Of a DNA stretch of 38,707 nucleotides, positions 8,274 to 36,254 are shown one piece after another (within the stretch, counting starts at the first letter, position 1; each line of letters starts with the position of its first letter). The stretch comes from Lachnospiraceae bacterium (GTDB lineage: Bacteria; Bacillota; Clostridia; Lachnospirales; Lachnospiraceae): the NCBI GenBank assembly GCA_022510605.1, contig JAFLTB010000001.1:1-38707 (forward strand), read 5' to 3'. Under the pieces are notes generated by a model. It was not told where the DNA came from and did not search any database. It saw nothing but the letters and a program-made list of their open reading frames with translations. A program made the translations under genes and the position numbers.

Positions 8274-8450
8274 ACTATCATCTCCTTATCTTTTTGTTTT
8301 TGTAATTTGCTGCAATATTATTTTTTGTCGATTTGGGAATAATATTCTGACAAGATATTTCCATGATGCAAGCGCTTTTGACATCCACATCATTTCCATT
8401 ACAAATTATTAGAGCTTCCCAAATTTTACATAATATATTAAAATAGATTT

Positions 8451-8481
8451 TGCAACATTTTTTGTGTTATAATCGTTTTAT
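8451..8481 (+). promoter_or_regulatory. Candidate ECF-sigma promoter (TGCAAC-N17-CGTTTTAT)
   Basis: TGCAAC (8451-8456) is followed after 17 bases by CGTTTTAT (8474-8481), the architecture of ECF promoters (TGAAAC/TGCAAC, 16-17 bases, CGT). The same boxes and spacing recur upstream of the second LRR gene at 34639-34669. A TATAAT at 8468-8473 lacks a -35 box at a proper distance. Confidence 0.65.
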
Positions 8482-8545: not shown

Positions 8546-9766
8546 ATGAAAAAATTATTGACATTATTAACACTGGGAGCTTGTATGTTTCTCTTTGGTA
8601 CAGTCCATGCGGTGGCGGCAGAGAGCGATGGTGTGAAAATTAATACCAATACGTTTCCGGATGAATTTCTGCAAACCTATGTATTGGAAAATTTTGACAC
8701 GAACAAGGATGGAATTTTGCAGCAGGAAGAAGCAGAAACAGTAACGGCTCTTACGCTCTGGAAATTCAAGAACAAAGATGAGCAGGGCGATGGAGAAGGG
8801 CCGGTAGAGTATCACTATTATACAGAAGACGAATTTACATTTGACTTCAAAGGATTGGAAAACTTTAGCAATTTATCAAATCTTACGATTCGGCTGCATG
8901 GCGGTTCGACGGAAGGGGATGTGGAATATCCGGTTAAGGTCAGCCATTTGAGCAACTTATACCAGCTTAAAAATCTGAAGACGCTGGAAATCAACAAGGC
9001 GGACTTAAAGAGTTTTGACTGCTCGAAATTTCCAAAACTGGAGAAATTAACCCTTACTGACTTTAGTGAGCTTAAAAAACTGGTTTTCAAGGGAAACAAA
9101 AAGTTGAAGAAGCTGGAACTTTGGGACCTGCCAAAGATGGACACATTAGATGTATCTTCTTTAGGAGGCCTGACTTCTCTGACATTGCGGTCAGTAGACG
9201 TCAAGACAATTCAGTTTGGAAAGAAGAACAGCAGTATAAAATCATTGTATGCAGGCAGCAGTTCTACCGCCAGGTATTGCACGAAGCTGAACTCTCTGGA
9301 TTTGAGCAAACTGACGGGATTAAAAAAACTCTATGTCACCAATATGAAAAATTTAAAGAAACTGGATGTATCCCGCAACAGGAATCTTCAATCCATTTAT
9401 TTGGAAAGGTGTAACAAGATTGCAGAAGTAGCACCAACAAAGAACAAAAAACTGACAGAAGTGGATATATGGAATTGCAAGAACCTCAAAACCCTCAACC
9501 TGAGTGCCAACAATAAATTGAACTGGCTGAGACTGGATGGCATGGAAGTGAAGAGCATTCAGCTGAGCAGGAAAAACAAGTTGTCTTTTTTCCGTTATGC
9601 CAACGCTAAGTTAAAGAAATTTGATGTAAAGAATATTAATGCCGGGACGCTGACGGATTTGCAGTTATATGGCAACAAACTGAAAAAAGTAGATGTACGG
9701 AAATATAAAAAACTTGAGAATCTGGAAGTGGATAAGGGCGTCAAGGTAATCGGCCGGAAAAACTGA
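8546..9766 (+). CDS. Secreted leucine-rich-repeat protein with EF-hand-like motif
   Basis: The 406-residue protein starts MKKLLTLLTLGACMFLFGTVHAVAA, a Sec signal peptide cleaved near residue 24-26. The start at 8546 follows GGATGGAGG. The mature N-terminus holds VKINTNTFPDEFLQTYVLENFDTNKDGILQQEE, where Asp51-Glu62 form an EF-hand/dockerin-like calcium loop. From about residue 90 to the end there are repeated L-x-x-L-x-L units (LKNLKTLEINKADLKSF, LTGLKKLYVTNMKNLKKLDVSRN and so on), giving a solenoid. There is no LPxTG or membrane anchor, so the protein is probably released or bound through its basic repeats. It shares its N-terminal layout and promoter with the protein at 34725, which is adjacent to an ECF sigma factor. 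Confidence 0.82.
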   Translation: MKKLLTLLTLGACMFLFGTVHAVAAESDGVKINTNTFPDEFLQTYVLENFDTNKDGILQQEEAETVTALTLWKFKNKDEQGDGEGPVEYHYYTEDEFTFDFKGLENFSNLSNLTIRLHGGSTEGDVEYPVKVSHLSNLYQLKNLKTLEINKADLKSFDCSKFPKLEKLTLTDFSELKKLVFKGNKKLKKLELWDLPKMDTLDVSSLGGLTSLTLRSVDVKTIQFGKKNSSIKSLYAGSSSTARYCTKLNSLDLSKLTGLKKLYVTNMKNLKKLDVSRNRNLQSIYLERCNKIAEVAPTKNKKLTEVDIWNCKNLKTLNLSANNKLNWLRLDGMEVKSIQLSRKNKLSFFRYANAKLKKFDVKNINAGTLTDLQLYGNKLKKVDVRKYKKLENLEVDKGVKVIGRKN

Positions 9767-32747: not shown

Positions 32748-33320
32748 ATGTTACTTTTTTTAGCGATGCTGGAGAATGAGGGAGATTCCGAAAAATTTAC
32801 GAAACTCTACCAGCAATACAAAGGTTTAGCCTTCTGGGTGGCAAATCAGGTTTTAATGGATGACTATTTGTCTGAAGATGCAGTTCAGGAGGCTTTTACC
32901 CGAATTGCCAGAAATTTTTCTAAACTTTTTCTAAAAGATGACATTTTCTGCAACAAAACGAAAAGTTTCATCGTTATAGTAGTTGAAAGGATAGCAATTG
33001 ACATTTATCGGAAGCATAAGCGGCAGCAGGAAAACGAAATTTATTCTGAAAAGTGGGAAGAGACTCTGTTTGCATTGGGAGATATGGTCCCCAAGAAGGA
33101 AAACTACGTACATAATGCAATCCAGAGTCTGCCCAGGATGTATAGTGAAGTCTTGGTTCTTCACTATGTCAACGACATGAAAGGCCGTGAGATTGCTAAA
33201 ATTCTCGGTATGAATGAAAATACAGTACGAACCCGCATAGCCAGAGGGAAGCAGCAGCTGGAAATACTGTTGTCTGACTGGCTGGTACGGGAGCATGAGA
33301 AGAAGGAGGATGAGGACTGA
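32748..33320 (+). CDS. ECF-type RNA polymerase sigma factor
   Basis: The 190-residue protein contains sigma region 2 (KLYQQYKGLAFWVANQVLMDDYLSEDAVQEAFTRIARNFSKL) and region 4 (AIQSLPRMYSEVLVLHYVNDMKGREIAKILGMNENTVRTRIARGKQQLE), with no region 3, as in ECF sigma factors. I chose the ATG at 32748 with GGGGG upstream; a TTG at 32724 gives a longer form. Its stop overlaps the start of an anti-sigma factor by one base. ECF factors recognise promoters of the type AAC/CGT, and matching motifs lie upstream of 34084, 34725 and 8546. Those secreted-protein genes are therefore plausible targets. Confidence 0.9.
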   Translation: MLLFLAMLENEGDSEKFTKLYQQYKGLAFWVANQVLMDDYLSEDAVQEAFTRIARNFSKLFLKDDIFCNKTKSFIVIVVERIAIDIYRKHKRQQENEIYSEKWEETLFALGDMVPKKENYVHNAIQSLPRMYSEVLVLHYVNDMKGREIAKILGMNENTVRTRIARGKQQLEILLSDWLVREHEKKEDED

Positions 33321-34012
33321 TGGAACGGGAATACATCAGGAAGGTACTGGAAGACTACGCAGATTATCGTATGGACACAGCATATTCGCCCGATAAGGAA
33401 GAGACAGAGGCACATGAATTTTCCAAAAAGCATGAGAAGAAAATGAAAAAACTCATCTGGAGTGAGAAATATTTTGGCACCCATATTACCCTGGGCAATG
33501 TGGTAAGGCGTGTGGCGGTTTTCGCTGCCGTCATTCTGTCGCTGGCGGCGGCAAATACGGTCAGCGCCAAGGTGTTTGGGTTCAATCCGTGGAAGACATT
33601 TGTTACCAAGATAGGTGCTGAATGGGAGACAGTAACTTATCGGGGGGCAGAAAACCAGAGGGCCAATTATAAAAAGAGACTCCATGAAGTCCCGGCCTAT
33701 GTGCCGGAGGGCTATCAGGTAACCTATTCTGAGGAAACAGAGGTGAGTTCCAATGTGGCTTGGGAACAGGGTGAGAGCAAGGTGGCGTACAGTTCCATAC
33801 AGATTGAGGATGGAATGGTGAGACAGCTCAGCCAGGAGCTTGTCAAGAAGGAGGATTTGGTTATTGGAGGCTATGCAGCCGTCTTATACGAAATAGAGGG
33901 CGAATGGGTTCTGATATGGGATGATGCCGAACGAGGGAATGATTTGTCGGGAACTGGCATATCCATAGAGGAATTGACAAAAATGGCCGAAAGTATATAT
34001 GAAGAAAATTAA
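33320..34012 (+). CDS. Membrane anti-sigma factor with DUF4367-like extracytoplasmic domain
   Basis: The 230-residue protein starts at an ATG overlapping the sigma-factor stop (TGATG), indicating coupled translation. Residues 1-60 are charged and cytoplasmic. A single membrane span lies at about 64-84 (RVAVFAAVILSLAAANTVSA), and the outer domain ends EGEWVLIWDDAERGNDLSGTGISIEELTKMAESIY, which matches the DUF4367 pattern (Val-Leu-Ile-Trp followed by the 'sGTGIS-x-EEL-x-x-MAESI' helix). The likely role is to bind the ECF sigma factor at the membrane and release it on an envelope signal. No ZAS zinc motif (HxxxCxxC) is visible. Confidence 0.83.
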   Translation: MEREYIRKVLEDYADYRMDTAYSPDKEETEAHEFSKKHEKKMKKLIWSEKYFGTHITLGNVVRRVAVFAAVILSLAAANTVSAKVFGFNPWKTFVTKIGAEWETVTYRGAENQRANYKKRLHEVPAYVPEGYQVTYSEETEVSSNVAWEQGESKVAYSSIQIEDGMVRQLSQELVKKEDLVIGGYAAVLYEIEGEWVLIWDDAERGNDLSGTGISIEELTKMAESIYEEN

Positions 34013-34027
34013 AAACAGGTAAATTCC

Positions 34028-34056
34028 GGCAACATATCCCTTCTTTTATACGTTTA
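34028..34056 (+). promoter_or_regulatory. Candidate ECF promoter (GGCAAC-N17-CGTTTA)
   Basis: GGCAAC (34028-34033) is followed after 17 bases by CGTTTA (34051-34056), the same spacing as the boxes upstream of both LRR genes. The predicted transcript would start a few bases before the AAAGGAGGTGA ribosome site. Confidence 0.55.
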
Positions 34057-34083
34057 GGAGTATGAAAGGAGGTGAGAGACAGA

Positions 34084-34464
34084 ATGAAGAGGGTCATTAC
34101 ATATCTGCTGGTGTTGTCCCTGCTGCTGGTGCCAGGGGCAAAGACGGCACAGGCGGCTCTGGGGAAAGACCAATCGGTATCGCTTACCATTAACGGCAGT
34201 AAAACCGCAAGTATTTCTGTATCTGCCAAGGGGACAGCCTCGGTGACGCAGATACATATTACCAGTTACCTGCAGAGGTACAAAGACGGTAAGTGGACAA
34301 CCATTACCTCATGGAGCAAAACGGTATATAGCAATACGTCAAGCTTTTCAAAAACCCATTCCCTTTCTGTTTCGGGAAAGTACCGCGTGCAGGCCATTAT
34401 AAAATACACCGGAAACTCTACCACTGAGTCGCATACCATTAATTCGACTACCAAAACCTGTTAA
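34084..34464 (+). CDS. Small secreted protein
   Basis: The 126-residue protein begins MKRVITYLLVLSLLLVPGAKTAQA, a Sec signal peptide, and leaves a mature domain of about 100 residues with alternating strands (VSLTINGSKTASISVSAKG, TQIHITSYLQRYKDGKWTTITSWSKTV, HSLSVSGKYRVQAIIKYTG). This is a beta-sandwich-like pattern. It ends in a Thr/Lys/Cys tail. The ATG at 34084 lies nine bases after AAAGGAGGTGA and is preferred over the GTG at 34072. It is placed immediately after the anti-sigma gene with its own ECF-type promoter. I do not recognise the family; a similar layout is common for small Lachnospiraceae exported proteins. Confidence 0.72.
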   Translation: MKRVITYLLVLSLLLVPGAKTAQAALGKDQSVSLTINGSKTASISVSAKGTASVTQIHITSYLQRYKDGKWTTITSWSKTVYSNTSSFSKTHSLSVSGKYRVQAIIKYTGNSTTESHTINSTTKTC

Positions 34465-34528
34465 GAAAAGGCGAGGGCACAGACGACGAAGCCATTGATA
34501 TACATAACAATAGAACAAGTAAGAAATT

Positions 34529-34602
34529 CCTCCCATTTATTGGGGGCACAATGCAACAGAATTACCCGGTTGTGTGTCCTATAATAGATGGGAGGTTTTT
34601 TT
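34529..34602 (+). terminator. Long-loop terminator after the small secreted protein gene
   Basis: CCTCCCAT (34529-34536) pairs with ATGGGAGG (34588-34595), followed by seven T residues. An inner GGCACAA/TTGTGTGTCC pairing shortens the effective loop. Confidence 0.7.
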
Positions 34603-34638
34603 GGTGGAAAAAATTTTTTATAAAAAAATAAATTTTTT

Positions 34639-34669
34639 TGCAACATTTTCTTCCCCTCAATCGTTTTAT
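34639..34669 (+). promoter_or_regulatory. Candidate ECF promoter (TGCAAC-N17-CGTTTTAT)
   Basis: TGCAAC (34639-34644) and CGTTTTAT (34662-34669) are 17 bases apart. The blocks TTGCAACATTTT and AATCGTTTTAT are identical to those before the LRR gene at 8546, while the nine bases between them differ. This marks the blocks as the conserved elements. Confidence 0.65.
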
Positions 34670-34724
34670 TGATGTAAGGGCCCAAAATAAAACAGAAAAT
34701 GAAAAAAAGAATGGGGGTTTTTCC

Positions 34725-36254
34725 ATGAAAAAACAGTGTATCATTATGGCGGCGGCGTTGATGCTGACCGTTGGAGCGGTATGTGGGGCCGGGGAGAAGG
34801 AAGCAAAGGCGGCTACGGTTGCCATTAACAAAAAGAACTTTCCAGATCAGGTGTTCCGTGAGCTGGTGAGAGTCAATTACGACAAGAACAAGGATAAGAA
34901 ATTATCCGACGGGGAAATTAAAAATGCCAGAAAGTTTGGCTCCAGTTCCTGCAAAAACACGGTAAAGATTAAGCCGTCCAAGTATGCGAAGTACCAGAAG
35001 AAATACGTGAAGGATATCAAGTCCTTCAAGGGAATCGGCAAGCTTACCAATCTTCAGAAGTTTGTGGCCAATGAAACAACAGTAAAAACCATAGATTTGA
35101 AAAAGAATAAAAATCTGGTTTATCTGGAGATGACCGATGGCAAGCTGCAGAAGCTGAACCTGAACAAAAACCTGAAACTGAAATATGTATATTTAGAGTA
35201 CAACCAGTTGACATCCCTGACGATGAACAAGTGCAAGAAACTGATTGACGTAGATTTGACAGGGCATATGGTAAAGAAGTTGAAAATTTTCCATAACAAA
35301 AAGACAAACGTTATAGGAGAGGACTACTACCAGCCATATAGCGCAACGAAAATCAAGGAGTCTTTCAATTTCCTGAATGATGGGGGCGCACTGGATGTCA
35401 ATGGCAATTACTGCATCTATGAATGGAATGAAGATTATTCCGGTTGTGTGAAGAAGACGCTGACCGGCACTTCCATGACCAGCAATGCAATTAACTTAAA
35501 TTCTGACACCATATATAAGGCAAAGGCTATGCAGAACATTACGGCACAGTGGCAGGATGCCCAGGGCAACTTCTACTTTGTGGCAGATAAGGATGGCGAC
35601 ATGGTGGCAAAAACCGTAAACTATCTTTACAAGGTAAACCCTCAGGGAGCCATTGAGCAGGAGATTGTACTCAATGACCAGATAAGCTTTTCTGAGAGCT
35701 ACAACAACCGCTACAACCTGTATTTCATGAATCAGAAAAATGGTGTGGCAGCATTGAAAATGACCACAGGAAGCAATGTTTACGGTGTAATGTATTTCGA
35801 TATGAATACCATGAAGGTAAGCAGACAGGTGGAATGCGATTTTGAGCCATATGCCACCGAAGGGGATACGGTAGTGGGAAGCAAATCCTATGATGTAGTA
35901 GTCAGCAAAATTCCGGCCGGCCGGGAGGCGGAACTGGAAAATGGCGAAAAGATTGAGGTTTGCCAGCTTTCGGCAACCCATCGGATTAGCATTCCAATCC
36001 GTGAGGATTTCAGTGCATACTCCATCGGAGTAAAAAATAACTATGTATATCTCATCAGCAGCAAGGGATTTTTCAGGGCAAAACTAACAGCCAAGTCCTT
36101 TACACAGTTGTATGGCATCGGAAAGATTTCCGGCATGCAGGATTCGGAAACTACCTACCAGATGACCATGAACAGCGAGAAGGAAATTGTTCTGTTATTT
36201 GCAGATAAAAAAGAGGGAAAAGTGTCACACCGTCTGGTTCAGTGTAAAATCTGA
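34725..36254 (+). CDS. Secreted LRR protein with C-terminal propeller-like region
   Basis: The 509-residue protein begins MKKQCIIMAAALMLTVGAVCGAGEKEAKA, a signal peptide. It continues with VAINKKNFPDQVFRELVRVNYDKNKDKKLSDGEI, the same layout as the N-terminus of the protein at 8546, with an EF-hand-like loop at Asp53-Glu64. Short leucine-rich repeats follow (LTNLQKFVANETTVKTIDLKKNKNLVYLEM and onward, to about residue 195). The second half contains repeated strands such as NFYFVADKDGDMVAKTVNYLYKVNPQG, reminiscent of DUF5050/propeller modules. There is no sorting signal. The start at 34725 follows GGGGG; the upstream frame to 34638 runs through the promoter and is rejected. It lies downstream of the ECF sigma operon and shares its putative promoter. 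Confidence 0.8.
   Translation: MKKQCIIMAAALMLTVGAVCGAGEKEAKAATVAINKKNFPDQVFRELVRVNYDKNKDKKLSDGEIKNARKFGSSSCKNTVKIKPSKYAKYQKKYVKDIKSFKGIGKLTNLQKFVANETTVKTIDLKKNKNLVYLEMTDGKLQKLNLNKNLKLKYVYLEYNQLTSLTMNKCKKLIDVDLTGHMVKKLKIFHNKKTNVIGEDYYQPYSATKIKESFNFLNDGGALDVNGNYCIYEWNEDYSGCVKKTLTGTSMTSNAINLNSDTIYKAKAMQNITAQWQDAQGNFYFVADKDGDMVAKTVNYLYKVNPQGAIEQEIVLNDQISFSESYNNRYNLYFMNQKNGVAALKMTTGSNVYGVMYFDMNTMKVSRQVECDFEPYATEGDTVVGSKSYDVVVSKIPAGREAELENGEKIEVCQLSATHRISIPIREDFSAYSIGVKNNYVYLISSKGFFRAKLTAKSFTQLYGIGKISGMQDSETTYQMTMNSEKEIVLLFADKKEGKVSHRLVQCKI

Follow-up and report, generated by a model that had tools for sequence, protein, structure and literature searches.

A predicted sigma factor regulon of secreted-type proteins in uncultured gut Lachnospiraceae, and a second promoter class at the same locus

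The locus and its promoter-like sites

This work concerns a stretch of 38,707 nucleotides from a Lachnospiraceae genome (assembly GCA_022510605.1, contig JAFLTB010000001.1, positions 1 to 38,707 of the forward strand), which we call the window, and in particular the predicted promoters of three genes for secreted-type proteins that lie in it. Two of these genes encode proteins of leucine-rich repeat (LRR) type, and two follow a gene pair for a sigma factor of the extracytoplasmic function (ECF) type, the window sigma, and a putative membrane anti-sigma factor (Table 1). An earlier note on this DNA had described three promoters with identical 17-base spacing and had linked them, as one regulon, to the adjoining sigma factor. 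The description is confirmed: GCAAC-N17-CGTTT occurs exactly on the plus strand at 8452-8478, 34029-34055 and 34640-34666, the earlier coordinates being off by 1-3 bases. The two LRR promoters do share their boxes, as TTGCAACATTTT and AATCGTTTTAT are identical at the 8450 and 34638 sites while the bases in between differ, and Pfam bears out that an ECF sigma factor and a DUF4367-like protein adjoin each other. It is the attribution to the adjoining sigma factor that we question below.

Table 1. Features of the window discussed in the text. Promoters are predicted; both class-1 sites were part of the training set of the profile whose E values are given.
Feature	Position	Strand	Remarks
Class-1 ECF promoter, TTGCAACATTTT-N12-CGTTTTA (predicted)	8450..8480	+	65 bp 5' of LRR gene; profile E 6.5e-7
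Secreted-type LRR protein, 406 aa	8546..9766	+	LRR_4, 47.1 bits
ECF sigma factor (window sigma), 190 aa	32748..33320	+	Pfam Sigma70_r2, r4_2
Putative membrane anti-sigma factor, DUF4367	33320..34012	+	DUF4367 (PF14285), 47.7 bits vs gathering cut-off 22.1
Class-2 promoter, GCAAC-N17-CGTTT, A before CGTT (predicted)	34029..34055	+	Position and spacing conserved, 5/5 window-sigma loci
Small secreted-type protein, 126 aa	34084..34464	+	No Pfam family at E<=0.001
Class-1 ECF promoter (predicted)	34638..34668	+	56 bp 5' of 34725 gene; profile E 1.3e-8
Secreted-type LRR/EF-hand-like protein, 509 aa	34725..36254	+	No Pfam family at E<=0.001; weak internalin-J match

All three downstream proteins (8546, 34084 and 34725) have a hydrophobic, signal-like start; such starts were judged throughout by eye and by a crude rule, with no signal-peptide program. 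The 8546-9766 protein has a DxNxDG stretch that we take, by eye, to be EF-hand-like (Pfam gives no EF-hand), and the same label for the 34725-36254 protein is likewise our assumption, made by eye.

An extended class-1 motif and the genes behind it

In the own genome the short motif does not by itself exceed chance, an outcome that the earlier note had listed as refuting its proposal. The window contains 31 matches with up to 2 mismatches (34.0 expected), and GCAACN{15,19}CGTTT has 15 matches in the whole genome (2.72 Mb) as opposed to 14 for the reversed control. The N17 spacing is present in 6 of these 15 matches (binomial p 0.06). Another site of this kind, GCAAC-N18-CGTTT, is found at position 9590 of contig C85 (loci L014, L107) near the start of a gene for a long secreted-type protein; its spacing is one base off and it was left out of the counts.

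The pattern shared by the 8450 and 34638 sites is longer, and we refer to it as class 1. When TTGCAACATTTT-N12-CGTTTTA was searched with up to 2 mismatches in 99 genomes, using the reversed pattern as control, the own genome had 5 matches vs 1, and individual genomes of the genus had up to 14 (control 1 there), the control reaching at most 2 in any genome of the genus. Columns that the search pattern does not specify are conserved as well: among 91 rows from the genus, position 20 is T in 80, position 22 is A in 79, position 23 is A or T in 89 and position 24 is T in 88, which gives the consensus TTGCAACATTTT-N7-TnAWTCGTTTTA. The extended class-1 motif is thus real and beyond chance. A sequence profile built from 47 class-1 sites found 93 sites at E<=1e-3, which are spread over 16 genomes of the genus, and none in the remaining 23 of its 39 genomes, the scores not being independent because the training sites come from the genomes searched. 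In the own genome the profile gives five sites at the same threshold, on contigs C111 (one), C1 (two), C94 (one) and C81 (one), and the next one has E 0.046. Within this uncultured genus of gut Lachnospiraceae, only some members possess the class-1 regulon.

The genes behind the sites were surveyed in the window and in loci L101-L180, which together hold 76 distinct sites. An open reading frame (ORF) begins 10-300 bp 3' of the site in 69 of the 76 (range 17-287, median 53) and none does so in 7; in 7 of the 69 the gene is that of a sigma factor. Signal-like starts, by the crude rule, are present in 54 of the 62 non-sigma targets, as compared to 103 of 294 other ORFs of the same loci (p 2e-14), although some ORF calls among the targets are visibly poor and two are shorter than 50 amino acids. 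A regulon with ECF-type promoters and rich in secreted-type proteins, as suggested in the earlier note, is supported; the adjacent sigma factor as reader of the LRR promoters is unsupported. Pfam was run on 52 of the 62 targets; ten short, cut or non-secreted calls were omitted, so the tally is biased toward secreted families. The BspA-type repeat LRR_5 was found in 26 of the 52, and LRR_8, LRR_4, subtilase (2) and Ig-like domains in others. We also considered that the regulon might comprise all BspA-type genes, but dropped this idea since LRR_5 is frequent in the genus generally (19-58 domain matches per genome in seven genomes) and none of the class-1 targets of the own genome matches LRR_5.

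A contrary explanation of all these sites would be that the boxes recur by chance, or as copies of a dispersed repeat, and do not mark promoters. The chance-level count of the short motif is what one would expect in that case. The excess of the extended motif over the reversed control in the relatives, the conserved columns outside the search pattern, the spacing of the downstream ORFs and the enrichment of secreted genes all speak against it, as does the fact that the spacer sequence between the boxes is unconserved, and we give this explanation almost no credence.

There are a few individual targets that can be mentioned here. The C111 site of the own genome precedes a lipoprotein-like gene. 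On contig C81 (L105:1906-1936), a weaker class-1 site (E 6.5e-4) lies 70 bp 5' of a gene that we take to be a rex-like redox regulator on the basis of two Pfam domains. In genome G014, contig C14 has three more class-1 sites within about 6 kb (L108:12618-19647), each 53-56 bp 5' of a secreted-type gene, and two of these genes are similar neighbours.

Which sigma factor reads which promoter

The own genome (G000 in the genome labels) encodes a second ECF sigma factor of 173 amino acids on contig C94, with a class-1 motif 22 bp upstream of its gene. Orthologs of the C94 sigma are found in 13 further genomes of the genus (65-79% identity). When the top-scoring site in the 200 bp upstream is taken, each of the 14 has a class-1 motif there, at a distance of 21-69 bp from the start. 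Each of these sites exceeds the maximum of 300 shuffles of its own stretch; eight of the 14 are part of the matrix mentioned below, and the other six, two of which are identical, score 20.9-29.8. The C94-type sigma is present in 14 of the 16 motif genomes (Fisher 8e-9), and the 23 motif-free genomes of the genus have none, the best match being 46%. The motif on the sigma's own promoter is stronger evidence than the co-occurrence. Directly downstream of the sigma gene, all 14 orthologs have a putative membrane anti-sigma gene, its hydrophobic segment recognised by eye. In both the C94-type and the window sigma, Sigma70_r2 and r4_2 score above the Pfam cut-off and no region 3 family appears at E<=0.001; judging by this domain content, both are of the ECF (group 4) type. 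The alignment of the C94-type family matched named genome records, mostly metagenome-assembled genomes; for the window sigma the scan of named genomes gave no relative.

The window sigma has a different distribution. Relatives with 48-66% identity and the same neighbours are found in G014, G033, G034 and G036, other matches being paralogs in G000 (57%) and G014 (51%) or at most 43% identical, and none was found in G018 and G035 at E<=1e-15. The five loci share a site of a second class in the gap between the anti-sigma gene and the small gene: it reads GCAAC, GAAAC or GAATC, then N17 and CGTT(T/A), and the base before CGTT is A in 5 of 5, as opposed to T in 88 of the 91 class-1 rows. The 34029 site belongs here, and it scores 9.1 with a class-1 matrix made from 68 sites, where the 8450 and 34638 sites reach 38.1 and 44.0; the earlier grouping of the three sites in one regulon is thus probably wrong. 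Homologs of the small 34084 protein occupy the same place in G014 (56%), G036 (40%), G033 (38%) and G034 (32%), with E 2e-12 or better. The block retains its class-2 promoter in differing surroundings, as it comes after what is presumably an enolase-like gene (a neighbour named by eye) in G000 and G014 and stands elsewhere in G033, G034 and G036. When the five genomes were scanned for further class-2 targets, the matches did not exceed the control, except for the local sites already known in G033, G034 and G036. The small gene at 34084 is probably a local target of the window sigma, which we say with moderate confidence from the conserved arrangement.

Could the window sigma nevertheless read all three promoters? 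There is adjacency in the own genome and in G014, the N17 spacing is common to all three, and the four genomes with a close relative in the same setting all have the motif. However, the 300 bp upstream of the window sigma in the 5 loci contain no class-1 or class-2 site, with one poor loose match in G033, 210 bp upstream, so that the window sigma's own promoter appears to lack the regulon motif which the C94-type promoter carries. In addition, close relatives of the window sigma are present in 4 other genomes and the motif in 15 others, 11 of the 16 motif genomes being without one, and the 34029 site differs in class from those at 8450 and 34638. Comparing promoters across the orthologous sigma loci, as the earlier note had advised, upheld the class-2 site (5/5) but revealed no class-1 site in the 12-kb window-sigma loci of G033, G034 and G036. 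The 34725 protein has 52-77% identical homologs in G014, G018, G034 and G036 with a class-1 site before 4 of 4, and the motif is retained in G018 (52%) and G035 (48%), where the G035 site is weaker (score 23.5); in G034 and G036 the homolog and the window sigma lie on different contigs. As these homologs keep their class-1 sites with the window sigma on a different contig or not found, the adjacency of the 34725 gene seems incidental. A class-1 site also precedes both homologs of the 8546-9766 protein (68% identity in G033, 60% in G034). The link between the LRR promoters and the adjacent window sigma is probably wrong, and a window sigma that reads all three sites is very unlikely.

We therefore prefer the reading, with a probability of roughly 0.8, that two ECF systems meet in the window, one composed of the class-1 promoters and the C94 sigma, the other of the class-2 promoter at 34029 and the window sigma. 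The reader of the 8450 and 34638 promoters is then most likely the C94 sigma of the same genome. The scheme that we infer, with its sigma-promoter binding, anti-sigma release and signal, takes the motif, its distribution, its presence before the C94-type sigma gene, the target types and the class-2 conservation as its observed basis. The putative membrane anti-sigma factor beside the C94 sigma, which has a large outer part, would let go and release the sigma; the freed sigma would transcribe its own operon, giving a positive feedback, and also the target genes, which encode secreted LRR proteins, lipoproteins and, in a few cases, subtilases. The window sigma and its DUF4367 partner would act locally, through the 34029 promoter, on the neighbouring small secreted protein.

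The shared variation of the -10 region is also consistent with the two-system reading. Target variants differ between genomes: CGTTTTA in G014 (6/6), CGTATTA in G025 (8/8), CGTTATA in G013 (3/3) and G028 (10/11), and CGTGTTA in G031 (2/3). At the four variable columns the within-genome agreement is 0.904, as compared to 0.705 when genome labels are shuffled (0/2000), and the own promoter of the C94-type sigma agrees with the targets of its genome better than in permutations (3/5000).

Several points weigh against this reading. Firstly, the sigma and the motif may share their distribution merely by belonging to a common clade, and the close kinship of some genomes contributes to the agreement of the -10 variants; in G000, G014, G021, G033 and G036, among others, the variant of the sigma promoter is not the commonest target variant. 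Secondly, G028 (16 sites) and G032 (4 sites) are without a C94-type ortholog even in a loose search, their assemblies being 82% and 81% complete. Both also lack a gene, presumably trmL-like (named by eye), which G021 has and which stands just upstream of the C94-type sigma in 8 of 14 genomes including G021. As G032 has contigs near-identical to those of G021 and lacks this gene, an assembly gap is plausible there; for G028 its absence is a weak argument, since 6 of the 14 genomes do not show it beside the sigma. Thirdly, G049, which has a C94-type relative outside the genus, shows a weak site only (2.7 vs a shuffle maximum of 2.6), the rex-like candidate target is non-secreted with a weaker site, and only five loci underlie the class-2 link.

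Some of these points would also suit a different explanation, namely that the class-1 promoters are common to several ECF sigma factors and are a place where several signals converge. The own genome has 22 sigma region-4 matches. G021 and G032 (L113, L114) contain another sigma/anti-sigma pair that is preceded by a variant site (TTGTTAC...TTCGTTATA) and directly followed, after the anti-sigma gene, by a complete class-1 site. In addition, G028 and G032 have class-1 sites, and their assemblies show no C94-type sigma. On the other hand, the one-base difference before CGTT between the two classes suggests separate specificities, and the distribution of the motif follows that of the C94-type sigma, the sigma factors profiled being the C94-type and the window sigma. 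Several sigma factors could share the promoter, but we lean clearly against it.

Anti-sigma factors, known systems and minor observations

In both putative anti-sigma proteins a single hydrophobic segment links the N-terminal part to an outer part, which in the window protein is the DUF4367 domain. Three orthologs of the C94-type protein were scanned for DUF4367 (cut-off 22.1) and scored 27.8 in G021, 16.2 in G000 and 15.2 in G025. The C94 protein matches no NCBIfam family, a profile comparison of the window and C94-type anti-sigma families gave nothing, and the search of solved structures with the window protein returned no useful match. The structure model of the window anti-sigma has a mean predicted local distance difference test score (pLDDT) of 71.6 and a predicted template modelling score (pTM) of 0.59, and that of the C94 anti-sigma has 76.4 and 0.35, respectively. 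The first Foldseek matches of both are the envelope-stress sensors MucB/RseB, at E about 1e-3 or worse and with a low template modelling (TM) score; the best one for the window protein has probability 0.99, E 3e-3 and low TM. This is only a hint of an RseB-like sensor in the modelled anti-sigmas. In contrast to RseB/MucB, the domain would here be part of the membrane anti-sigma and not a separate protein, and at these pTM values the evidence is weak.

It is useful to compare the two systems with ECF sigma factors described before. According to a review (PMC8103513), AAC and CGT boxes are recognised by the ECFs that were investigated first, and autoregulation holds for about 55% of ECFs with predicted regulons. 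The autoregulated sigma/anti-sigma scheme in that review resembles the present case in that only regions 2 and 4 are present, a putative anti-sigma adjoins, the boxes are AAC and CGT, and the motif is on the sigma's own promoter. The present case differs in its long conserved -35 extension (ATTTT) and the TnAWT before CGT, and in its mostly secreted-type targets, with BspA-type LRR in half of those scanned. For Clostridioides difficile, a 2020 start-site study states that the consensus sequences of the ECFs had yet to be identified (PMC7438776). The closest solved sequence to the C94-type family is SigW of Bacillus subtilis (5wuq, E 1.4e-23), but the C94-type sigma stays below the NCBIfam equivalog cut-offs of SigW and SigV (84.5 vs 209 and 84.4 vs 190). 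In the open-licence literature we found neither this regulon, its sigma nor the second promoter class, and nothing joining an ECF sigma factor with DUF4367 or with leucine-rich repeats in Clostridia, a sigma factor with BspA and secreted proteins in Lachnospiraceae, or TGCAAC with a Firmicutes ECF sigma. The mechanism is thus standard, the regulon is new, and the assignment of the sigma is corrected.

The case illustrates that a promoter is not necessarily read by the sigma factor that adjoins it, as the comparison across relatives pointed elsewhere. It also places secreted proteins of unknown function from uncultured gut bacteria in a concrete, testable regulon with a likely switch, and the -10 shifts shared within species are a natural data set on sigma/promoter coevolution. 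We speculate that an autoregulated ECF sigma could be the switch, in much of the genus, for the display of a large and changing set of secreted LRR/EF-hand-like proteins, with envelope sensing through RseB-like anti-sigma domains and a promoter specificity that drifts by species while the promoters keep in step. Taken as a whole this picture is doubtful, and we offer it tentatively.

Two minor observations remain. The closest paralog of the window sigma in the own genome (57%; contig C79, L102:2524-3153) has no anti-sigma gene after it and is followed by genes that we take, by eye, to be response-regulator-like and kinase-like; the same arrangement after a sigma gene is seen in G014 (L109:5194-5760). 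At the right end of the window (L374:1-339, contig positions 38500-38838), an N stretch lies between two copies of one short sequence; it may be a gap in the assembly or a repeat that was masked.

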